Source: Ensifer sp. Root278 (GTDB lineage Bacteria; Pseudomonadota; Alphaproteobacteria; Rhizobiales; Rhizobiaceae). From it: 64,000 nucleotides of DNA. The translations under genes were made by a program, and so were the position numbers. Below, piece by piece: positions 33,357 to 40,528 of this stretch (the first letter of the stretch is position 1; each line of letters begins with the position of its first letter). The stretch is from positions 86,940 through 150,939 of the forward strand of contig NZ_LMJJ01000041.1 in NCBI RefSeq assembly GCF_001429285.1, read 5' to 3'. A model generated the notes under the pieces. It was not told the DNA's origin, ran no database searches, and saw only the letters and a program-made list of their open reading frames with translations.

Positions 33357-33383
33357 TTTAAACAGTTTAAAAGGGATTTAAAT
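33357..33383 (+). promoter_or_regulatory. TTTAAAC-A-GTTTAAA dyad and ATTTAAAT upstream of the LacI-type gene
   Basis: TTTAAACAGTTTAAA (33357-33371) is a perfect 15-base inverted repeat; ATTTAAAT (33376-33383) is a second small palindrome 4 bases later. They sit in the 177-base gap after the MarR stop and upstream of the regulator start (33505). The centre is not the CG of most LacI operators, so another regulator, or simply an AT-rich promoter, is also possible. Confidence 0.5.
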
Positions 33384-33504
33384 TTATGGCACGCGTACGT
33401 CCGTTGGGATGTACGAAAAGTGCCGTGAGGCATGCTGCAAGAACCTCACTCGGATTGGATTGTGGGGCTGCGGCCGAGGGCGGAACAAGGCTACAGGGGG
33501 CATC

Positions 33505-34527
33505 GTGGCGCAAAAGGTCAAGCTTTCGACGATTGCGGAAACACTCGGTCTTTCGACGGCAACGGTATCCCTGGCTCTACGCGACAGTCCTTTGGTGGCG
33601 ACCGTCACCCGCGATAAAATCAAGGAGCAGGCCCGCGCGCTCGGCTATATCTACAACCGCCGCGCTGCCAGTCTCAGAACATCCCGCTCCGGCATCATCG
33701 GCGTCGTCGTGCACGACATCATGAACCCGTTCTACGGGGAAATCCTGAAGGCGATCGAAGCGGAGCTCGACCGCGACAAGCAGACCTTCATTCTCTCCAA
33801 CCACTACGATTCGGTCGACAAGCAGCGCGATTTCATCGAGACGCTGCTGCAGCTCGGCGGTGATGGCGTGATCATGTCGCCGGCGATCGGTACGCCGCTG
33901 GAGGACATCCAGCTTGCCGAGGACAACGGCATGCCGGCGATCCTAATCGCCCGTTCGATCGAGGGCGTGGACGTGCCGATCTTCCGCGGCGACGACGCCT
34001 ACGGCATCTCGCTTGCCACCAACCACCTGATCGGCCTTGGCCATCGCTGCATCGCCATGGTCGGCGGCACCGACCAGACGTCGACCGGGCGCGACCGCTA
34101 TCAGGGCTATGTCAACGCGTTGCGCAAGGCCAATATCGAGGTCGATCCGGAGCTGCGCATCCCCGGTCCCCGCACGAAGCAGGGCGGCTTCGAGGCGGCG
34201 GTGCATCTGCTCTCCCTGCCGCAGAAGCCGACGGCAGTCGTCTGCTGGAACGACCTGGTGGCGATCGGCATGATGAACGGCATCGCCCGCGCCGGTCTGG
34301 TGCCCGGCGTCGATATCTCTGTCACCGGCTACGACGACCTCGAAGAGGCGTCGATCGCCACGCCGGCATTGACCACCGTCTGGAATGGCCAGGCCGATGT
34401 CGGCCGCAGTGCTGCCCGCGCGCTCCTCGACAAGCTTTCCGGCAGCCACGAACCCGACGGTATCCATCTGATCAAGCCGGAAATGCGCATCCGCCAATCA
34501 ACGGGCCCGTTGCGCGTCATCGCCTGA
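33505..34527 (+). CDS. LacI family transcriptional regulator
   Basis: A 340-residue repressor. The helix-turn-helix KLSTIAETLGLSTATVSLALRDSPLVATVTRDKIKEQARALGYIYNRRAASLRT (about residues 6-59) carries the LacI hinge. The periplasmic-binding-protein-like sensor follows (SGIIGVVVHDIMNPFYGEI...AVVCWNDLVAIGMM...DISVTGYDD). Start: a GTG at 33505 has AGGGGG 4 bases upstream and gives the normal N-terminus; an ATG at 33409 would add 32 cysteine/arginine-rich residues. It is followed after 26 bases by a 2-hydroxyacid dehydrogenase, so the pair is probably one transcription unit for a sugar-acid pathway. Confidence 0.88.
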   Translation: MAQKVKLSTIAETLGLSTATVSLALRDSPLVATVTRDKIKEQARALGYIYNRRAASLRTSRSGIIGVVVHDIMNPFYGEILKAIEAELDRDKQTFILSNHYDSVDKQRDFIETLLQLGGDGVIMSPAIGTPLEDIQLAEDNGMPAILIARSIEGVDVPIFRGDDAYGISLATNHLIGLGHRCIAMVGGTDQTSTGRDRYQGYVNALRKANIEVDPELRIPGPRTKQGGFEAAVHLLSLPQKPTAVVCWNDLVAIGMMNGIARAGLVPGVDISVTGYDDLEEASIATPALTTVWNGQADVGRSAARALLDKLSGSHEPDGIHLIKPEMRIRQSTGPLRVIA

Positions 34528-36754: not shown

Positions 36755-39064
36755 ATGATGCGACTTGGACAGAGCGCTCTTCCGACTGACGTGTATCTGT
36801 CATCCGTGAGCTCGCTCTACGAACATCGCAAGACGTTGCTGATCGGCATGTTGTCGCATGTCGTGACGTTTCTGCTCGTCTATCTCAAGACCAGTGATCC
36901 GCTTTATCTCGCCTGCTCCGGCGTGATCTTCGTGCTCTGGGCGCTGCGCAATGTCGATATGGCGCGGTTCGACCGGCAGGATTTCTCCAATGCCGACCGG
37001 GCGATGGTCCGCAAATGGGAGAACCGCTATATCGTCGGCGGTGTCAGCGTCACGCTCACCTGCGGCATCGCTTGCGGTTATGCCATTGCCGTCAGTCAGG
37101 ATTCCTTTTCAGAGCTTGCGACCATATCGGTGACGCTGGCCTCGATGATCTCGCTCGTTGGGCGCAACTACGGCTCGGAGCGGGCCGTGCTTCTCCTGTC
37201 CTCGTCCGCATGCCTGCCGATCGTGATCGGCCTGATGACGCTGCAGGACGTGTTCATGCTGGCGCTTGCCTTCCTCATCCTGCCGTTCATCCTTTCCACC
37301 TGGATGATGGCCAACAATGTGCGCGCCTTTCTCTATGAGAATGTTTTGGCGGCGCGCGAGATCGCGACGATTGCCGGCCAGTTCGACGCGGCGCTCAACA
37401 ATATGACGCATGGCTTGTTCATGCTGGATGGCGACGGCCGCGTGGTGGTGGCCAATGAGCGTGCCAGCGAGTTGCTGGCGCTTGGCGACAGGACCGAACT
37501 CAAGGATTGGCTGCTCGATGACGTGATCCGGCGCGGCGCGCGGCGCATGCGGCTCGATGCCGAAAAGACCAAGGCGATCTCGCGTCAGCTCGATCTTCTG
37601 CTCAAGGGCAAGCGCCCGCAGGTATTGATCCCGGTCAGCGAGGAACTGCACCTCGAGTTTTCCGCCAGCCGCCGCGACAATGGCGATATCGTGCTGATCT
37701 TCGAGGACGTGACGGCACGCGTACAGGCGGACAAGCAGATTCTGCACATGGTGCGCTTCGACAAGCTGACCGAGCTGCCGAGCCGCGACTACTTCGGAGA
37801 GCTGGTTGTGGCCGCCGCAAGCGGCGACGAGAAGGAGGACCGGCTCGTCGGCCTGATGGTCCTCGACGTCACCGAGTTCAAGCATGTCAACGACATGCGC
37901 GGCCACATCGTCGGCGACAAGCTGCTGCAGGCGATCGCCGGCCGGTTGAAGGCGCTCGCCGGTGATGATGCGATCGCGGCGCGGCTGATGGGCGACGAGT
38001 TTGTCGTGTTCTTTCCGAACAGGGCTGACGTGGCCGATCTGGAAGAGCGGATGCGGGGGCTGCACACGGAACTGCGCGGCACCTATGTTGCCAGCGGCTT
38101 CACCTTCAACATGACCATGAGCGCGGGCTTCGTCATCGCGTCGAACGTGGATCTAAAACTCGAAGACCTGCAGATCAAGGCGGATCTCGCGCTTTCGGAA
38201 ACCAAGCTGCGCAACCGCGGCGGCTGCACTGCGTTCGAAGTCGAGATGGACGCCCGCTATGTCGACCGCCAGAAGCTCAAGGCGGATTTGCGCGAGGCGA
38301 TCAATGCGCGCAGCCTGACGCTTTCCTACCAGCCGATGTTCGCGCCGAGCGGCGGCCGGGTCGAATGCTGCGAAGCGCTGGCCCGCTGGACGCATCCGGA
38401 GCGCGGGCCGGTGCCGCCGAACGTGTTCATTCAGCTCGCCGAGGAACTGGGGCTGGTCACGGAGATCACGCGTTTCGTGCTCGACCATGCATGCCGGGAT
38501 TGCATGGACTGGCCGAGCGATGTGTCCGTCTCCGTCAACCTCTCGGTGCTCGATCTACGCAGCAGCGAAATCGTCACGATGGTCACGGATGCGCTTCAGG
38601 CAACCGGCCTCGATGCTTCGCGGCTGCATCTGGAGGTCACCGAAAGCTGCCTGATGGACGAGCCGCTCAAGGTGCAGGCGATCCTGCGCGAGCTGCGGGG
38701 TCTCGGCATCACCATTGCCATCGACGATTTCGGCACCGGATACTCCAGCCTCAGTTATCTCGATGCCCTGCCGGTAGACATCATCAAGATCGATCGGTCC
38801 TTCGTGCGCAACATCCGTGAGGATTCGCGCCGCTTCAAGCTCCTGCGCGGGACGGCAAATCTTGCCCGTGCCCTCGGCCTGCGCATCGTCGTCGAAGGCG
38901 TCGAGACGACGGATCAGTTGCAGCTCATCACCGAGCATAATTGTGCCGATTTGATACAGGGCTTCGTCTTCGCCGCCCCCATGCCAGCTTCTGCTATTGC
39001 AACGCTTTGCAAGAACGGTGTGCCAAAACGAGGCACTAAACCCAGCAGCAAGCGCATCGCCTGA
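36755..39064 (+). CDS. Membrane PAS-GGDEF-EAL protein; degenerate GGDEF, intact EAL
   Basis: A 769-residue c-di-GMP protein. The N-terminus has about five membrane helices (residues about 28-190). A PAS-like part follows (AALNNMTHGLFMLDGDGRVVVANERA), then the GGDEF domain. Its signature is RLMGDEF, MGDEF at 412-416, so the first glycine is Met and cyclase activity is doubtful. The EAL domain is complete: Glu540-Ala-Leu in CEALARW, NLSV, an ES motif, and DDFGTGYSS (Asp657, Asp658). It is probably a phosphodiesterase lowering c-di-GMP, with the GGDEF as a regulatory module. A hairpin occludes the start's ribosome-binding site. Confidence 0.9.
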   Translation: MMRLGQSALPTDVYLSSVSSLYEHRKTLLIGMLSHVVTFLLVYLKTSDPLYLACSGVIFVLWALRNVDMARFDRQDFSNADRAMVRKWENRYIVGGVSVTLTCGIACGYAIAVSQDSFSELATISVTLASMISLVGRNYGSERAVLLLSSSACLPIVIGLMTLQDVFMLALAFLILPFILSTWMMANNVRAFLYENVLAAREIATIAGQFDAALNNMTHGLFMLDGDGRVVVANERASELLALGDRTELKDWLLDDVIRRGARRMRLDAEKTKAISRQLDLLLKGKRPQVLIPVSEELHLEFSASRRDNGDIVLIFEDVTARVQADKQILHMVRFDKLTELPSRDYFGELVVAAASGDEKEDRLVGLMVLDVTEFKHVNDMRGHIVGDKLLQAIAGRLKALAGDDAIAARLMGDEFVVFFPNRADVADLEERMRGLHTELRGTYVASGFTFNMTMSAGFVIASNVDLKLEDLQIKADLALSETKLRNRGGCTAFEVEMDARYVDRQKLKADLREAINARSLTLSYQPMFAPSGGRVECCEALARWTHPERGPVPPNVFIQLAEELGLVTEITRFVLDHACRDCMDWPSDVSVSVNLSVLDLRSSEIVTMVTDALQATGLDASRLHLEVTESCLMDEPLKVQAILRELRGLGITIAIDDFGTGYSSLSYLDALPVDIIKIDRSFVRNIREDSRRFKLLRGTANLARALGLRIVVEGVETTDQLQLITEHNCADLIQGFVFAAPMPASAIATLCKNGVPKRGTKPSSKRIA

Positions 39065-39198
39065 CGCTGCGACCCCAAATTTCGTTCCGTTTTGATGCTG
39101 CGCATTCGGCAGCAAGCCCTTGATTAGTTGGGGTAAATTCATCCAGATTTGGTGCGTTTTGCTCCAAATCAACCGAATTAATTTACGAATTTTTAGGG

Positions 39199-39214
39199 TT
39201 AACAAAAAGTTAAC
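39199..39214 (+). promoter_or_regulatory. CtrA box 1 (TTAA-N7-TTAAC)
   Basis: TTAA-CAAAAAG-TTAAC matches the alphaproteobacterial CtrA consensus TTAA-N7-TTAAC exactly. It lies 80 bases before the FeeM-like start. Its partner is at 39263-39279. Confidence 0.75.
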
Positions 39215-39262
39215 AGTGAACTGTTCCGTTTTGCGGTTGCCGCCCCATTTTCCGTCAATAGG

Positions 39263-39279
39263 TTAACGATTTGTTAACC
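39263..39279 (+). promoter_or_regulatory. CtrA box 2 (TTAA-N7-TTAACC)
   Basis: TTAA-CGATTTG-TTAACC matches the full CtrA consensus including the trailing C. It ends 14 bases before the ATG, so bound CtrA could block translation initiation-proximal transcription or start it upstream. A GANTC methylation site (GATTC) lies at 39304-39308 inside the gene start. Box 1 lies 64 bases upstream. Confidence 0.75.
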
Positions 39280-39293
39280 ATGAGGTCTGGAAT

Positions 39294-40067
39294 ATGGGTG
39301 AGACGATTCACCAGGCGGAGCCTGGGCGTTTTTCTGAAAAGCTGATGCAATTGCTCGATCGTGTCGAATATCGGCGGGTCGAAACCGGCGAGGACATGGA
39401 GGACATCGCGCGGCTGCGTTACAAGTCCTACAAGTCCGTCAATCTGATGGAATTGACGGGCTCCACGCTGATCGACGATCTCGACTTCGACAGCCACGCC
39501 TATGTCTTCGGCATCTATCTCGATGAGAGCCTCGTCAGCACCGTGCGCGTACATCACGTAACGCCGGAGCACCGCGCCAGTACATCGGGCCTGATCTTCG
39601 GCTCCGAGATCGACGCGTTCCTCGATGCCGGCATGGTGCTCGTCGATCCGGGCCGATTGGCCGTCGACCCTGATGTCATCGGTGACGATATGCGGGCGCT
39701 TCCCTACCTCACGCTCCGCCCGGTCGCCATGGCCTGCGAATACTTTTCCGCCGACCGTTGCCTGACGGCCTGCCGGCCGCGCCACACCGCCTTCTACAAG
39801 CGCATTTTCGCCTCCGAGACCGTGGTCGCCAAGCGCGATAACCTGGGGGTCTACAATGCCGATGGCGCCCTGCTCGTGGCGCAGGTGAGGGGGCAGCGGC
39901 CCTCGATCCTCGACCGCTACCCGATTTTCGATTCGGAGCCTTTCGAACGCCGCATGATGTTTGCCGATCGCAGCGAGGTGCCGTTCGCCCCGCTGACGAT
40001 CCTGCCGACCGCGCGCATGGCGCAAACCGGTTATGGACGTTCTTATCGAACCTCCGTCTTCCGCTAG
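39294..40067 (+). CDS. FeeM-like N-acyl amino acid/acyl-homoserine-lactone synthase-fold acyltransferase
   Basis: A 257-residue GNAT-fold protein. Residues about 20-90 show the pattern of FeeM and LuxI-type synthases: DIARLRYKSYKSVN (Arg-rich opening), DDLDFDSHAYVFGIYLDESLVSTVRVHHV (acidic pair, then the Arg-containing strand). A long helical C-terminal half follows. Such enzymes make N-acyl amino acids or acyl-homoserine lactones from acyl-ACP; here the product is unknown. No signal peptide or membrane helix is present. Two perfect CtrA boxes precede the start, so cell-cycle control is likely. The upstream gene is a c-di-GMP phosphodiesterase candidate. Confidence 0.75.
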   Translation: MGETIHQAEPGRFSEKLMQLLDRVEYRRVETGEDMEDIARLRYKSYKSVNLMELTGSTLIDDLDFDSHAYVFGIYLDESLVSTVRVHHVTPEHRASTSGLIFGSEIDAFLDAGMVLVDPGRLAVDPDVIGDDMRALPYLTLRPVAMACEYFSADRCLTACRPRHTAFYKRIFASETVVAKRDNLGVYNADGALLVAQVRGQRPSILDRYPIFDSEPFERRMMFADRSEVPFAPLTILPTARMAQTGYGRSYRTSVFR

Positions 40068-40303: not shown

Positions 40304-40528
40304 ATGGCTGAGCATCATTCTGGACCGGTCGATGTGGGCGCTTCGATGGATTATCCGGAGCACGAGAAGACCTATCTCATGTTCCTGAGCGCATCGAAGT
40401 ACGGCACGCTGTTTTGCGTGGCCCTGTTGATTGCCATGGCTGCCGCATTCTTCACGACGATGGGCTTCTTCTCCTCGCTCGTGCTCTTCATTCTGCTCAA
40501 CGTCGCAGGTTTCTTCTTCCTGCGCTAA
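40304..40528 (+). CDS. aa3-type cytochrome c oxidase subunit IV
   Basis: A 74-residue protein with the family core MDYPEHEKTYLMFLSASKYGTLFCVALLIAMAAAFF, then a second hydrophobic stretch ending LNVAGFFFLR. This matches the short bacterial CoxIV (PF07835) that wraps the aa3 oxidase. No other oxidase genes are near. In Rhizobiales this gene is often found just before pntAA, as here. A hairpin lies further upstream (40092-40117). Confidence 0.85.
   Translation: MAEHHSGPVDVGASMDYPEHEKTYLMFLSASKYGTLFCVALLIAMAAAFFTTMGFFSSLVLFILLNVAGFFFLR

Follow-up and report, generated by a model that had tools for sequence, protein, structure and literature searches.

The acyltransferase locus

In this work we have analysed a window of 64,000 nucleotides from Ensifer sp. 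Root278 (by the window we mean this whole stretch of DNA), in which a gene for a putative acyltransferase of the FeeM/LuxI superfamily stands behind two CtrA-type boxes. The features of the locus are:

36755..39064, + strand: gene for a membrane PAS-GGDEF-EAL protein, a probable c-di-GMP phosphodiesterase (Pfam EAL 224, GGDEF 106 and PAS_7 48 bits)
39198..39214, + strand: distal CtrA-type box GTTAACAAAAAGTTAAC, its core 95 bp upstream of the acyltransferase start codon
39215..39261, + strand: inter-box spacer, containing a partly conserved block and then tcAataGg ahead of the proximal box
39262..39279, + strand: proximal CtrA-type box GTTAACGATTTGTTAACC, its core 31 bp upstream of the start codon
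39294..40067, + strand: gene for the predicted FeeM/LuxI-superfamily acyltransferase, 257 aa (PF21926 134 bits, cut-off 27)
40304..40528, + strand: gene for an aa3-type cytochrome c oxidase subunit IV (COX4_pro_2; PF07835 71 bits), followed by pntAB

A gap of 229 bases separates the acyltransferase gene from the gene upstream, and both boxes lie inside it. An earlier, sequence-only reading of the window had described two exact CtrA-type sites here, TTAACAAAAAGTTAAC at 39199-39214 and TTAACGATTTGTTAACC at 39263-39279, and we find both of them; each window box forms an inverted repeat (palindrome) GTTAAC-N5-GTTAAC. The same reading held that nothing else in the window shows such sites. This is true of the pattern TAA-N7-TTAAC but not of the shorter core TTAA-N7-TTAA, which has a weaker third copy, TTAAAAGGGATTTAA, at 33367-33381. 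That copy lies just upstream of a gene (33409-34527) which we read as encoding a LacI-type regulator. The three TTAA-N7-TTAA cores of the 64-kb window compare with a mean of 0.06 in shuffled sequence. A scan of the promoter region with the sigma-70 consensus gave no match. A terminator-like hairpin with a T-rich tail, at 39311-39325 in the first acyltransferase codons, is within chance (one found and 1.6 expected in 1.4 kb).

The gene directly upstream had been proposed to encode a c-di-GMP phosphodiesterase. Its PAS-GGDEF-EAL architecture was confirmed and an EALAR motif is present, in keeping with that assignment, and the GGDEF motif reads MGDEF and is perhaps degenerate. Among 66 full-length orthologues the EAL motif DDFGTG is kept in all 66 and ExLxR, searched with a narrow pattern, in 55. 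The protein has five non-overlapping hydrophobic segments in its first 190 residues.

Conservation of the boxes among orthologous loci

If the boxes matter to the acyltransferase gene, are they kept where the gene is kept? We collected 68 loci in one scan for close relatives of the acyltransferase and took the 160 bp before the start codon as the upstream zone. These 10,880 bp contain 121 TTAA-N7-TTAA sites, whereas not one occurs in the other 713,047 bp of these loci. The sequence-only reading had named conserved orthologues lacking the boxes as the finding that would speak against regulation, and such orthologues are few: the strict box occurs in 61 of the 68 loci, twice or more in 42, and is missing in seven (L053, L055, L056, L058, L059, L061 and L062). 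At spacings of 5, 6, 8, 9 and 10 the upstream zones contain 0, 5, 1, 6 and 1 sites, compared with the 121 at 7, which indicates that it is the seven-base spacing that is conserved. A strict box is found in the distal position (-135 to -74) in 52 of the 68 loci, in the proximal position (-60 to -20) in 36, and in both together in 28. The distal element of the relatives is often double, with two boxes that begin 17 bp from each other.

A second set of 105 loci, from the family and the order, was composed of the best-scoring loci of two profile searches (30 at most from each) and 48 hand-picked ones, aimed at one per genus; it overlaps the first set in part (L164 and L075, for example, are on contigs of equal length). 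Within 160 bp of the start codon a strict box is present in 59 of these loci and a box with at most one mismatch in 96, so that 46 have no strict box and nine not even a one-mismatch box. Control windows from the same loci, which are presumably mostly coding, gave 0 strict and 11 one-mismatch boxes in 1,623. For the 48 hand-picked loci alone the counts are 19 strict and 42 with at most one mismatch (0 and 5 in 490 control windows). Nineteen loci, part of the 42 matches outside the window's family, belong to three further families of the order; a strict box is present in 12 of them and a box with no more than one mismatch in all 19 (0 and 5 in 372 control windows).

When 21 Ensifer/Sinorhizobium sequences were aligned, the share of columns conserved at >=85% was 87% in each box, 47% in the spacer and 20% in a stretch upstream of the distal box. 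The spacer consensus after the distal box in these sequences reads tgt..c.tTTtg..gTtgc.

A GANTC site just inside the gene had also been noted. GATTC does exist at 39305, but only one of the 68 orthologous loci has it at the same offset. Any GANTC between -150 and +60 is found in 24 of the 68 loci, compared with about 11 expected from the density in the window; these sites are scattered, the commonest offset being found in seven loci. We have rejected GANTC as a second cell-cycle element (a promoter of the GcrA/CcrM type), because its position is not conserved.

Loci without the acyltransferase gene

Could the boxes instead act on the cox and pnt genes downstream, or on the EAL gene at its 3' end, so that they precede the acyltransferase gene only by chance? 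The gene order is stable enough to raise this question. In all 68 loci the PAS-GGDEF-EAL gene lies upstream on the same strand (directly adjacent in 66, with a frame of >650 aa in 66 of 68) and a coxIV-like gene lies downstream, as does pntA in 57. In the 105 further loci the PAS-GGDEF-EAL gene is upstream in 99, within the flank that was fetched.

The answer comes from genomes which have the EAL gene and not the acyltransferase gene. Profile searches of 297 genomes of the family found the acyltransferase in 210 and the membrane domain of the EAL protein in 225. When the two lists were compared by hand, 208 genomes had both, two the acyltransferase alone, 17 the EAL domain alone and 70 neither; the EAL membrane domain thus accompanies the acyltransferase in 208 of 210 genomes and is found in 17 of the 87 others. 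We examined the eight loci with the stronger matches among these 17, the matches of the other nine being weak (E 4.7e-4 to 4.7e-19). None of the eight, at 5.2-5.9 kb each, contains the acyltransferase gene or a TTAA-N7-TTAA or TTAA-N7-TAAA site. Half-sites do occur: in one locus (L213) a single GTTAAC is found 77 bp past the EAL match, and in another (L215) there is one GTTAAC inside the EAL match. The order EAL-coxIV-pntA is kept in four of the eight, and these four have no box, nor do the other four. One genus (g48) holds both states, with the acyltransferase present in one genome (G259) and absent from two (G047 and G140). The lack of boxes at these eight loci indicates that the boxes go with the acyltransferase gene. 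We have rejected the neighbouring genes as their targets on the same grounds; that reading is already largely contradicted and we give it hardly any credence.

CtrA as the regulator

In the alphaproteobacteria CtrA governs genes of motility, division and the cell cycle. The genome studied here encodes a CtrA with 99% identity across 201 aa to the query sequence taken as that of Sinorhizobium meliloti. Its 7.1 Mb contain five exact GTTAACN5GTTAAC places, two of which are those before the acyltransferase gene, and the other three adjoin genes for a flagellin, a FliN-type protein and an outer-membrane protein. Two of these three, at L079:1502 and L082:1502, lie before the FliN-type gene and the outer-membrane beta-barrel gene. 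A one-mismatch form of the box precedes minC.

These genes resemble those known from S. meliloti, where flaA is a CtrA target verified by ChIP and lacZ fusion (PMC4433202), minC carries a CtrA motif and five CtrA sites have been verified at ctrA itself (PMC3616915). The likeness extends to the type of box and to the kinds of gene that bear it, flagellin and minC, and the difference is that the acyltransferase gene is not among the genes named in the description of the S. meliloti CtrA regulon in these two sources, apart from their supplementary target lists. The motif has its limits, however. With at most one mismatch GTTAACN5GTTAAC has 15 places in the genome and the backward pattern 10, and TTAAN7TTAAC gave 18 + 16 rows compared with 14 + 13 for its backward form, a modest enrichment; the ctrA region with its 1.5-kb flanks has no exact box. 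As ctrA is a published CtrA target and the genome-wide excess is modest, the strict motif must be neither complete nor exclusive.

It may be asked if another regulator binds the boxes, or if they are just AT-rich promoter sequence. The palindrome GTTAAC-N5-GTTAAC could be read by other dimeric regulators, and the modest enrichment and the ctrA region without an exact box fit such an explanation. The spacing of exactly seven, the absence of any such site from the 713 kb of flanking DNA and the fact that flagellar genes of this genome also have the box, and minC a one-mismatch form of it, argue against it, and we consider it quite improbable. Control by CtrA, as predicted from the conservation of the boxes, their spacing specificity and their absence where the gene is absent, is strongly supported.

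The enzyme

The assignment of the gene product to the FeeM/LuxI superfamily was borne out by the sequence comparisons, namely the PF21926 score, a match to EsaI and colinearity with the genome's own LuxI, and we regard membership as well supported. All 69 aligned members of the acyltransferase family match PF21926 at E<=1, the best at 1e-41. Its closest named relative, 98% identical, comes from an Ensifer strain, and dN/dS values of 0.017-0.064 in eight comparisons point to strong purifying selection. The genome has a single match to the acyltransferase profile (A1), and in a sample of the class (289 genomes) no other PF21926 match scores above 48.8 bits. The genome's true LuxI also passes the PF21926 cut-off, with 33 bits; the Pfam name FeeM is therefore broad and does not fix the chemistry.

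A search of solved chains with a diverse 57-member profile found EsaI at E=0.0036 and a second AHL synthase at E=1, and did not retrieve FeeM's own solved chain (2G0B) at E<=10. The single acyltransferase sequence found nothing among the solved structures. The matches of a 69-member profile to solved structures were judged spurious, and comparing this profile with the genome's LuxI gave no meaningful result. NCBIfam and PHROGs contain no family that matches the acyltransferase at E<=1e-3. The acyltransferase profile and the genome's own LuxI are colinear by hhalign (E=0.00063, probability only 28%). We take the LuxI signature residues to be R, F, W, D, D, R, E and R, with positions taken from the genome's own LuxI. 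Arg42, Asp61, Asp64, Arg85 and Arg121 of the acyltransferase are identical at these positions, Tyr46 for Phe and Asp118 for Glu are conservative replacements, and Trp is not kept.

Is the enzyme then genuinely a synthase of acyl-homoserine lactones (AHLs), LuxI-like and encoded on the chromosome, which the LuxI profiles miss? It shares the superfamily and most signature positions with LuxI and EsaI, its best solved match is EsaI, and three of the 69 members match Autoind_synth (PF00765), the best at E 5.1e-4. However, no PF00765 match at E<=1 was listed for the window protein (the HMMER filters drop most matches above 0.1), so we have not placed it in this family; it lacks the Trp, has Asp for Glu, and the conserved neighbours that were compared (GGDEF-EAL, coxIV and pntAB) do not include a LuxR gene. 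A true AHL synthase is thus unlikely. The likeness to FeeM lies in the shared Pfam family, from which a chemistry of acyl-ACP plus amine is predicted.

The genome's true LuxI gene (L086:1890-2525; PF00765, 181 bits) lies elsewhere and diverges from a ParA/RepA-like gene (L086:187-1449, - strand). Between the two is a near-perfect CtrA-type box, GTTAACAAAGCCTTAAC, at G000:C18:12900-12916 (L086:1501-1517), which recalls the CtrA site at the repABC-linked autoinducer gene of Rhizobium etli mentioned in PMC4046655.

Pairing with the GGDEF-EAL gene

Of 297 genomes sampled across the order 53 have the acyltransferase; 11 of the 53 belong to the window's family, and the distribution outside this family is thus patchy. 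A further occurrence is on plasmid pRt1078 of Rhizobium tumorigenes (L216:5953-9346). The acyltransferase there has diverged (34% identity; PF21926 111 bits), and its gene converges with a GGDEF-EAL gene whose encoded membrane domain matches that of the window neighbour (129 bits, E 1e-41). No strict CtrA box was found at this pair. Since the partners stay together here in a changed orientation, joint function explains the pairing better than inherited order alone, in this one case.

Other FeeM-type genes have different company. On two Roseobacteraceae plasmids (L219:1763-4558 and L217:5467-8260) such genes (126-130 bits) lie by genes for a methyltransferase and a membrane sensor histidine kinase; the Loktanella methyltransferase is a weak ICMT/PEMT-type match. 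This cluster is a candidate for the synthesis of N-acyl amino acid methyl esters, for which no synthase gene had been found so far according to PMC11580390. The pairing with a kinase does not appear to be general, as a FeeM-type gene was found in the flank examined at three of 31 loci with the kinase domain. We also found no support for a receptor domain common to the membrane part of the EAL protein and these kinases, with hhalign probabilities of about 0.1% for each kinase, and 0.16% with a 33-row alignment.

Perhaps the enzyme is under CtrA control and makes no signal at all, its product being a structural membrane aminolipid or an acylated envelope component made at a fixed cell-cycle stage. 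A review groups aminolipid N-acyltransferases with AHL and N-acyl amino acid synthases (PMC11631085), the GNAT domain Acetyltransf_5 weakly matches 14 of the 69 members (best E 0.02), and a box of the same type precedes the outer-membrane protein gene of this genome. Presence in 210 of 297 family genomes under strong constraint would be expected of envelope functions too. On the other hand, no second acyltransferase is encoded among the neighbours compared, the steady companion of the acyltransferase gene encodes a signalling protein, and one plasmid carries the pair too, in rearranged form. We regard a structural product as possible, though clearly the less probable outcome.

Relation to known CtrA-linked signals

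The link between CtrA and an acyl signal had been thought undescribed, which is too strong. Expression of luxI2 and luxI3 in Dinoroseobacter shibae depends on the CckA-ChpT-CtrA relay, and luxR2 is preceded by two perfect CtrA boxes and Dshi_4067, which adjoins luxI3, by a conserved one (PMC4046655). The same paper predicts CtrA sites ahead of LuxI/LuxR genes in some rhizobia and calls their occurrence scattered. As described there, the survey took in genes with pfam00765 or an autoinducer-binding domain, and the acyltransferase, having no PF00765 match, was probably outside it. The two systems are alike in that acyl-signal synthase genes are tied to CtrA, here a putative one by prediction, with CtrA boxes nearby. 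They differ in that the D. shibae genes are LuxI (pfam00765) genes, whereas ours is FeeM-type, is in stable synteny by a GGDEF-EAL gene and has boxes in most of the orthologues examined.

What stands of the earlier claim is its narrower form: we found no report of this FeeM-type gene under CtrA in the literature surveyed, apart from the supplementary tables of papers on CtrA targets. FeeM itself comes from an uncultured soil microbe, and its descriptions, as far as given in PMC9654057 and PMC11631085, mention no CtrA link. The conserved connection of CtrA boxes, in four families, with a FeeM-type enzyme and the pairing of this enzyme with a membrane PAS-GGDEF-EAL protein appear to be new.

Proposed model

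From these comparisons we infer CtrA binding with its sign and timing, as well as the chemistry and the pathway. CtrA would bind the acyltransferase promoter directly, as the motif evidence suggests. The distal box, double in many relatives, probably takes the place of the -35 region, and the conserved spacer block would then sit about where a -10 would lie. The proximal box, near the start codon in many lineages, probably limits transcription. The opposite sign, with limitation from the distal and activation from the proximal box, is possible as well. With CtrA in control, transcription would be confined to a certain phase of the cell cycle. The enzyme, predicted to depend on acyl-ACP, would transfer a fatty acyl chain onto a small amine to give an N-acyl amino acid or a related compound, and the membrane PAS-GGDEF-EAL protein probably belongs to the same pathway, possibly as a sensor of the product. 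For this explanation as a whole, a FeeM/LuxI-superfamily N-acyltransferase made in a cell-cycle window from a CtrA-bound promoter and sharing a pathway with the EAL protein, our confidence is reasonably good.

We can go one step further, though on much more speculative ground. The acyltransferase and the PAS-GGDEF-EAL protein could be a dedicated synthase-receptor pair, unrelated to LuxR, in which a CtrA-timed N-acyl compound acts on c-di-GMP and so feeds back on CckA-CtrA. This extension is a long shot compared with the model above.

An enzyme of acyl metabolism with CtrA boxes across several families would give the cell cycle a chemical output, and, if the synthase-receptor reading is true, a cell-cycle-gated lipid signalling module would be old enough for several families of the order to share. 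The two-gene unit is widespread in the window's family, could be deleted cleanly and is a concrete candidate for the source of an acyl signal or lipid in rhizobia. It also offers a regulatory link whose presence or absence follows that of a single gene inside an otherwise stable gene order.
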